DNA of 29,451 nucleotides from a virus, in IMG/VR virus record IMGVR_UViG_3300047357_000286, positions 1 through 29,451 of that record. One strand, 5' to 3'. Shown one piece after another: positions 22,991-24,533 of the stretch. How positions within the stretch are numbered: the stretch's first letter is position 1; each line of letters opens with the position of its first letter. The notes beneath the pieces were generated by a model. The model was not told the origin of the DNA, made no database searches, and saw only the letters and a list, made by a program, of their open reading frames with translations. A program made the position numbers and the translations under genes.

Positions 22991-23752
22991 TTATAAACTT
23001 GGAATGGTCTTTGCCACCTCCATGATAAGTTCGTTTTCTAAAAGCTCTGGTGGCATTGGTGACCTCCAGATAGAGATCAGCATGAGGCACTTTGTATATG
23101 CGTCAAGGGTAAAACCTTCTGCTTCGTAAATTTCTTTTGCGGCAGGGATAGGTGATGGTGGTGTTCCCATCCTTTCGCAATAGGCAGAGGCTAACTTCTG
23201 AGCCTTGGCAATGCCAATCCCCTTCATCCCCTCAATGTTGTCGGTTGAATCTCCCATGAGAAGTTGAACCAACCAATGGTAGTCTGCTTCCGCTTGTGTC
23301 ACTTGACGAGGCCAGTCATCCTTGTTCCAGTTGTAGTGCCACCCTGGGACACCAAGTAAGTCCTTGTCTATGCTACAAAGGATTGGGTTTTTAACCCTTC
23401 CGTTGGTCAGCATGATACCAAGTAAGTCATCTGCTTCTAACTGGTCGTGCTTGCACCACCTGTGGTTATTTAATTCCTCAAGCTTGTCCATCAATGGAAC
23501 GTAGAGAGGTGGCTTCTCGCGCCTCCCTGCTTTGTAGTCTGGATACAATACCTTACGGAAGTTGTTGCGTCCAGATACCACGAGGTAATGCTCCTGTGCG
23601 CGACAAGCAGAGACTACACTTTGTATAGTAAACTCTACCATCTCGACCAGGCTTTTTAAACCTGTGCCAGTTGACTCAGCCTTAGCTGCATGAGAGTAAG
23701 AGATCAGTTCAAGATCAATGAGAGCGGTTTTAGTATTTGTTTTTAGGTTCAT
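22991..23752 (-). CDS. 5'-3' exonuclease (FEN/T5-T7 gp6 type)
   Basis: The protein is 253 residues from the ATG at 23752 (MNLKTNTKTALIDLELISYS). The N-terminal PIN-like core begins TALIDLELISYSHAAK; metal-binding acidic residues follow in QLEADDLLGIML and ILCSIDKDLLGVPG. The helix-three-turn-helix DNA-binding motif is LLMGDSTDNIEGMKGIGIAK (about 183-202). It would remove RNA primers and degrade host DNA in the 5' to 3' direction. The family usually also has a flexible arch, partly visible here. A start at 23902 would add 50 low-complexity residues of the promoter leader and is rejected. Confidence 0.9.
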   Translation of the reverse strand: MNLKTNTKTALIDLELISYSHAAKAESTGTGLKSLVEMVEFTIQSVVSACRAQEHYLVVSGRNNFRKVLYPDYKAGRREKPPLYVPLMDKLEELNNHRWCKHDQLEADDLLGIMLTNGRVKNPILCSIDKDLLGVPGWHYNWNKDDWPRQVTQAEADYHWLVQLLMGDSTDNIEGMKGIGIAKAQKLASAYCERMGTPPSPIPAAKEIYEAEGFTLDAYTKCLMLISIWRSPMPPELLENELIMEVAKTIPSL

Positions 23753-23780: not shown

Positions 23781-23809
23781 GGTGTAGGGAAAGGTATTTG
23801 GATGGTCAA
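23781..23809 (-). promoter_or_regulatory. Possible leftward promoter for the exonuclease operon
   Basis: TTGACC (23809-23804), a 17-nt spacer and TACACC (23786-23781). The -10 is weak, but CTTCTTGAC and the downstream CCTTAC repeat the layout before the SSB-like gene (18322-18350), which suggests a shared class of leftward promoters. Confidence 0.35.
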
Positions 23810-23890
23810 GAAGAATCGTCCTTGTTTTTTTAAAAAAAACTTTGGTTCCTTGGTCTCAATCAAATCGGTGTAGCTCTTGGCGTTTGGACA

Positions 23891-24161
23891 TGGTTCACCC
23901 ATTACGAATGAACCACGTCCTGCTGTCTTGTCTCAAATCGTATGAGTCTGACGCTCTTTCATGTCGCCCCGCTTGGCTGTGGTAAGTGCTGTATAAGCTA
24001 CGGGACGGTGTTCACGCTCCGCTAGGAGCCACCTGTTACGCTAGGTCGGTATCTCTGTCAAACCTAGCAACCACTAGAACCGAGAAGCTACGCTCCAGGT
24101 TCCGTTGTGCAGACTTGGGTTAACCTGTGAGGCCACTTGCTCCGCTAGACTGTATGGGCAT
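23891..24161. other. Noncoding segment with several inverted repeats
   Basis: No gene is seen between the ncRNA terminator and the exonuclease leader. Hairpin candidates follow each other: TGGTTCA/TGAACCA (23891-23915), GGTG...GCTCC-GCTA-GGAGC-CACC (24007-24033), a perfect GCTAGGT/ACCTAGC (24040-24068) and GAACC/GGTTC (24077-24102). Variants of GCTCCGCTAG recur three times (24016, 24089, 24139). I found no tRNA cloverleaf. It may be part of an origin, a structured RNA or a scar; this is undecided. Confidence 0.45.
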
Positions 24162-24200
24162 AAAAAAACCCCTCCTACATGTCAAGCTGTAGGAAGGGTT
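24162..24200 (-). terminator. Leftward rho-independent terminator of the ncRNA
   Basis: A 13-bp stem with one G.U pair (24200-24188 with 24179-24167), an 8-nt loop and seven T residues (24168-24162) when read leftward. It separates the small-gene block from the replication block. Confidence 0.85.
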
Positions 24201-24304
24201 TAAAGTTGCTTGAGAACAAGCGGGGAAAGTTAAACTGATCCGTCTTGACACGGTAGCATTTCTGCTATGATTGAATTTAGTAAACAAGTTTTGGCAACTT
24301 GTCA
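24162..24304 (-). ncRNA. Putative structured phage small RNA, about 140 nt
   Basis: The stretch between an extended -10 promoter (24309-24321) and a strong terminator (24162-24200) has no credible gene but, read leftward, folds into consecutive hairpins: ACAAGTT/AACTTGT (24284-24302), TAGCA-GAAA-TGCTA with a GNRA loop (24254-24267), CCGT/ACGG (24240-24253), GCTTG-TTCT-CAAGC (24208-24221) and the terminator. The promoter overlaps the stop codon of the upstream gene. I recognise no known RNA family. Function unknown: it could be a regulator of host or phage transcription or mRNA. A short TTG-started frame across it is judged spurious. Confidence 0.58.
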
Positions 24305-24308
24305 AGCG

Positions 24309-24321
24309 GTATTATATCACA
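24309..24321 (-). promoter_or_regulatory. Extended -10 promoter, copy 3 (leftward)
   Basis: TGTGATATAATAC matches the copy at 3447-3459 over 13 nt. The TAA inside TATAAT is the stop codon of the gene ending at 24312. GAGACA lies 18 nt upstream of the -10 as a weak -35. It should start an RNA near 24304. Confidence 0.55.
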
Positions 24322-24533
24322 GATGCTAACACCCTGTCTCCGTAGCTCTCCTTGAGCCGTAAAGGGGCTATATTGCCGTTTTCATGGATGGCGAGACACT
24401 TACCTGGGGCAATGAGTGTAAAGCCGCTCACGCTAAACTCAGGCGCGTCAATCTCTGTTATGTGATAGGCAGAGTGGACTTGCTCCTCTGACAATTGTGG
24501 GTGATCCTTTCGGTATTGTTGTATGGTTTTCAT
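24312..24533 (-). CDS. Small unknown protein
   Basis: This 73-residue protein starts MKTIQQYRKDHPQLSEEQVH and continues as a beta-rich domain (PEFSVSGFTLIAPGKCLAIH). Its last codons GTGATATAA form part of the promoter of the downstream ncRNA. No family is recognised. Confidence 0.58.
   Translation of the reverse strand: MKTIQQYRKDHPQLSEEQVHSAYHITEIDAPEFSVSGFTLIAPGKCLAIHENGNIAPLRLKESYGDRVLASVI

Follow-up and report, generated by a model that had tools for sequence, protein, structure and literature searches.

What does an uncultured marine phage encode between its block of small genes and its replication block, where no credible gene is found? The phage is known from the 29.5-kilobase (kb) IMG/VR virus record IMGVR_UViG_3300047357_000286, and the window analysed here is that whole stretch of 29,451 nucleotides (nt). 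Large, apparently structural genes occupy the plus strand; the minus strand carries the small genes and the replication block. A sequence-only reading had placed between these two blocks a candidate phage small RNA of about 140 nt, with its own promoter, four further hairpins, and a strong terminator, and the locus does lie there, flanked by a 73-amino-acid (aa) gene and an exonuclease/helicase block. On comparative evidence, the element is a new RNA family in a group of uncultured marine phages; its general kind is known, and one of its covarying contacts is unusual. Two features go beyond the earlier proposal: the loop of one hairpin (B) pairs with that of the terminator (D), and a second structured RNA adjoins the first (Table 1).

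Taken singly, the window sequence is weak to only fair evidence. The minimum free energy fold of 24305-24160 comprises exactly four hairpins and the terminator (z = -5.67); without the terminator it is only modestly better than chance (z = -2.26), and promoter-like sites as a class are at chance level (14, compared with 13.3 in shuffled sequences). Comparison with homologues was therefore needed. Three protein queries (the 73-aa protein, exonuclease, and helicase) and a motif query from the small RNA yielded 21 distinct homologous sequences. They come from some 30 IMG/VR contigs and belong to a single phage group, in which exonuclease identity falls to about 60%; four of them (L033, L035, L036, and L037), with identities near that value, form a distant group.

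Hairpins A, B, and C, the terminator D, and the helix between the B and D loops were evaluated in alignment A1 against shuffled and slid controls. Of all pair cells, 94.7% are paired, compared with 80.9% after shuffling and 33-44% after sliding, and the covariation score is 0.423, compared with 0.165 and at most 0.118, respectively. Compensatory change supports A, C, D, and the loop-loop helix, and the stem of B is retained. The structural conservation in relatives on which the sequence-only reading had made its proposal depend is thus present across the 21 homologues, above both controls. In each record that carries the small RNA, a covariance model detects a single strong copy, always in the same place, and the RNA is retained where the upstream gene, or the downstream RNA or gene, differs. 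A protein-coding interpretation was rejected, since the 61-aa frame is disrupted by stops or by insertions and deletions in most homologues. The comparison indicates that the structure is preserved by compensatory changes and that the product is a functional RNA, which bears out the central proposal of a non-coding phage RNA.

The conserved structure is somewhat smaller than had been proposed. All four hairpins ahead of the terminator appear in the predicted fold and A, B, and C are conserved, but the first (24302-24284) was rejected as an RNA structure: none of its pairs is compensated, many are broken, and 85.7% are paired, compared with 84.1% after shuffling. The GNRA loop noted earlier belongs to hairpin A; it is GAAA in the window and GNRA in all homologues (GAAA, GCAA, or GAGA), although the closing pair is broken in L017. 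The end of the linker between hairpins B and C becomes UUUGCCGC in L015 and L070 and UUUUUCCGC in L062. The terminator had rightly been called strong, being the strongest in the 10 kb scanned; it is strong in every homologue, retains its T-run, and shows double changes in 11 of its 14 pairs.

The loops of hairpins B and D are complementary in every homologue, over 6-11 pairs. In the resulting helix, 99.2% of cells are paired and five of six pairs show double changes. Complementarity is preserved even where both loops differ in sequence: the B and D loops read UGUCAAG/CUUGACA in the window, CAUGCGG/CCGCAUG in L004, UGUAGUG/CACUACA in L010, UUAUGCG/CGCAUAA in L062, UGUCGCG/CGCGACA in L015, GUCAGAG/CUCUGAC in L033, and GAGUCGCAUUC/GAAUGCGACUC in L036. 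The weakest pair of loops, that of L007, has five Watson-Crick pairs and one G-U and resembles a mix of two types. When the eight loop types were permuted, the true assignment alone reached 59 pairs (1 in 40,320), a value that is a description and not an exact probability, the loops having been cut by hand from related sequences. A pairing that is free in sequence and bound in complementarity fits what is expected of a structural contact. We infer that the two loops pair within one molecule, given that they are separated by about 60 nt and flexible linkers in the same RNA; the covariation itself fits pairing in cis and in trans alike. On the exonuclease tree the loop types are dispersed, one type occurring in separate clades and near neighbours having different types, which suggests that they are exchanged by recombination. 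Pairing of a terminator loop with an upstream hairpin is a rarely documented contact, backed here by compensatory replacement of whole loops, and it opens the question of whether the terminator loop does more than end transcription.

The predicted 5' end differs from that proposed earlier. The extended -10 element of promoter P1 is present as described; the form found in 17 near-group homologues, TGNTATAAT, begins 14 or 11 nt before a TTGACA sequence, and it is absent in the four distant homologues. The earlier observation that this -10 is built into the stop codon of the upstream gene, through its TAA, holds for the window phage and its near-twin L005, but not for the other relatives, in which the upstream gene stops earlier and TGNTATAAT is retained. 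The second promoter signal, P2, of which TTGACA is the -35 element, is by sequence comparison the better conserved of the two. Since TTGACA occurs in every homologue and the extended -10 is less widespread and shifts relative to it, the small RNA probably starts near 24270 and has a length of about 105-110 nt rather than 140 nt; P1 may add a longer form.

Table 1. Positions of the small RNA, its signals, and adjoining features in the window
Feature	Position	Strand	Basis
Extended -10 TGATATAAT, promoter P1	24311..24319	minus	Sequence; TGNTATAAT in 17/21 homologues
TTGACA, -35 of promoter P2	24300..24305	minus	In 21/21 homologues
Palindrome in P2 spacer (first hairpin of the sequence-only reading)	24284..24302	minus	Unsupported as RNA structure
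Hairpin A, UAGCA-GAAA-UGCUA	24254..24267	minus	98.1% of cells paired; double changes at 2 pairs
Hairpin B, CCGU-GUCAAG-ACGG	24240..24253	minus	Stem 96.4% paired; loop complementary to terminator loop
Unpaired linker ending ACUUUCCCC(GC)	24222..24239	minus	Among the most conserved unpaired sequence
Hairpin C, GCUUG-UUCU-CAAGC	24208..24221	minus	99.0% paired; one pair with double change
Terminator hairpin D, 14 pairs (24201-24166), loop GCUUGACA, T-run 24168-24162	24162..24201	minus	Terminator scan and comparison
Terminator loop segment CUUGAC, pairing with GUCAAG (24249-24244) of hairpin B	24181..24186	minus	Complementarity and covariation
Second structured RNA (type I), about 300 nt, adjoining the small RNA terminator	23853..24153	minus	18 homologues aligned
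Upstream 73-aa gene	24312..24533	minus	Without known family
Downstream exonuclease gene	22991..23752	minus	PHROG 107, E = 5.8e-42
TTGACC-17-TACACC, probable promoter of exonuclease operon	23781..23809	minus	Sequence; TTGAC(C/T) in same place in relatives

We favour, with roughly even confidence, a free-standing phage small-RNA gene that would run from about 24270 to 24162 on the minus strand and most likely encode a riboregulator. Host RNA polymerase would transcribe it from P2, and in near relatives also from P1, and its own intrinsic terminator would end transcription. The pairing of the B and D loops would lock the RNA into a compact form with a protected 3' end and would expose ACUUUCCCC-GC, a conserved single strand beside hairpin C; the exposed linker, ACUUUCCCCGC, would contact a target, which might be a protein or an RNA of host or phage. 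The most likely role appears to be action in trans via this linker, though this is uncertain. Several points weigh against such a gene. The -10 element of P2 (TACTAA, 24277-24282, after a 17-nt spacer) is weak, with three of six consensus bases. Among phage gene starts, the best pairing of the linker was no better than that of shuffled linkers. The small RNA always directly precedes a conserved RNA-like segment without a recognisable promoter, so that it may be a leader and not a gene of its own.

In the window, that segment is the second structured RNA, in which 24 of 79 consensus pairs show compensatory change. Its GGUUCAU strand can pair with either a local GUGAACC or a distant GUGAAC, and the duplicated 6-mer is identical within each of three versions (GUGAAC, UGAAAC, and GGAAAC), which suggests that the RNA adopts alternative conformations. 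A 9-nt match to the linker, CAAGCGGGG, at 23975 in this RNA was rejected as a linker target; it belongs to a conserved stem of that RNA and does not persist in relatives. In every locus that has the small RNA and enough sequence, an RNA-like segment (types I-IV) occupies the slot behind it. Other contents of the slot (L012:1230-1600, L035:366-760, L036:4553-4950, L015:3104-3560, and L033:4478-4950) are apparently structured and unlike that of the window; one type, with a shared 25-mer, is common to L012, L035, and L036, and a separate type occurs in each of L015 and L033. Neither the second RNA nor, as far as they were searched, the replacement sequences have a match in Rfam. The slot is a place of exchange among several large RNA-like segments that are uncatalogued.

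This arrangement gives weight to a second explanation, in which the small RNA is the leader and gate of the second RNA, and perhaps of the exonuclease operon: transcripts from P1 and P2 would reach a leaky terminator with its loop held by hairpin B, and pairing or release of the loops would set the share of read-through. The terminator's own loop is a partner in the pairing, the second RNA starts about 8-14 nt after the T-run with no promoter seen between them on inspection of the sequence, the slot is consistently occupied, and all genes of the minus-strand arm of the window point one way. Against a gate, the terminator is strong in every homologue, no competing antiterminator was seen on inspection by eye, and the downstream operon has a probable promoter of its own (23809-23781). 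We consider a gate possible, yet clearly less likely than the free-standing gene. Somewhat more tentative still is a two-RNA device, in which a terminator latched by the kissing loops would gate a large RNA that is replaceable as a whole by unrelated ones, or in which the small RNA would multimerise via the latch loops. If true, such a device, gated or multimerising, would represent phage RNA machinery of a new kind.

Pairing between molecules, with the RNA assembling into rings or dimers by itself or on a protein, as in phi29 pRNA or the ROOL and GOLLD RNAs, seems to us unlikely. The phi29-type pRNA, likewise small and phage-encoded, depends on complementarity between two of its loops, over about 4 pairs. 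The small RNA of the window differs in the order of its hairpins, in having a terminator loop as one partner, and in its 6-11 pairs; pRNA was also rejected as its identity because there is no Rfam match and the neighbours are the 73-aa gene and the exonuclease, not a packaging ATPase. ROOL and GOLLD are phage-encoded structured RNAs with conserved kissing loops, GOLLD often exceeding 800 nt (PMC12286853), and are far larger than a small RNA of about 110 nt; neither the small RNA nor the downstream RNA of about 300 nt matches them in Rfam. Their conserved covarying contacts turned out to be intermolecular (PMC12286853), the covariation found here would suit such contacts equally, and the differing loop types of near relatives would separate the RNAs of co-infecting phages. 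The spacing of about 60 nt within one RNA and the flexible linker between the partners nevertheless favour an intramolecular contact, the gene is not beside packaging genes, and there is no match to the pRNA, ROOL, or GOLLD families.

A role for the transcript in priming or activating replication of the phage DNA, from an origin immediately upstream of the replication block, is improbable. The transcript's location ahead of the exonuclease and helicase would suit this role, and kissing RNAs control ColE1-type replication, but the small RNA ends at a strong terminator, as a primer would not, and there is no GC-skew turn at the locus, although no dedicated origin search was made. An ordinary terminator between operons with a promoter for the next, its hairpins functionless, would fit the position between blocks and the near-chance counts of promoters and terminators in the region, but it is contradicted by the compensatory conservation of the upstream hairpins and loop-loop helix and is the least credible of these alternatives.

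The Rfam search that had been suggested for the locus identified no known family: Rfam 15 gives no match in the window at the gathering threshold, and the best sub-threshold matches of the small RNA, to isrJ (18 bits, gathering score 37) and anti-hemB (16.7, gathering score 49.5), are at chance level. In general features (non-coding, conserved structure, own terminator, and a promoter by sequence conservation only) it resembles other phage-encoded small RNAs. Phage regulatory small RNAs include c4 of P1 and P7, AsxR, and SprY; c4 is believed to work via its loops, and the terminator stem-loop of its target is bound by AsxR (PMC12197685). Like these, the RNA of the window is a small non-coding phage RNA, but their targets are known and their sources are prophages or temperate phages (PMC12197685), and internal pairing of a hairpin loop with a terminator loop is not described for them in the literature consulted. 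No sequence similarity was found between the small RNA and phage records. The put RNA of HK022, of about 70 nt, has two stem-loops that let polymerase pass terminators as far as 10 kb downstream (PMC9378689). Two adjacent hairpins near a phage promoter, A and B, are present here as well; the small RNA differs in ending at its own strong terminator, in its short hairpins, and in its size. A type III toxin-antitoxin RNA (ToxI-like) was rejected, as no tandem repeats were seen and a structured RNA and an exonuclease follow.

Searches outside the phage group described gave no homologues. The covariance model found no small RNA in 35 further, more distant phage loci, blastn found no homologue in isolate phages or plasmids, and bacterial genomes, searched for the exact motif only, gave no match. 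In Phage C75C1 (47% helicase identity), the annotation shows no comparable gap. A search of bacterial genomes with the exonuclease, made with the host in view, found no relative.

Related units and neighbouring genes vary within the group. At the place of the small RNA, L062 (943-1039) and also L012 have a weak tandem extra unit (20.6 bits) with a promoter and strong terminator and without the B hairpin, and at L034:2634-2740 a replacement promoter-terminator unit likewise has a strong terminator and lacks the B hairpin; no loop pairing is visible on inspection in either the extra or the replaced unit. The gene upstream of the small RNA is a different one in the distant group, and on the other side the exonuclease is followed by a DnaB-like helicase and then a DNA methyltransferase. 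Judged from sequence, L001 and L002 apparently have an insertion of a DNA methyltransferase-like gene after the second RNA and ahead of the exonuclease. At the same position, L018 (3832-3929) has a tRNA-like gene whose anticodon is called, oddly, as four bases (aaat), and a similar sequence occurs in L019. Matches to the Type-P1 twister ribozyme occur some 3-4 kb upstream of the small RNA, at L037:270-328, L033:1051-1109, and L036:190-248, with scores of 46-51 bits, under the gathering score of 67.2, and E values of 8.5e-9 to 2e-7.
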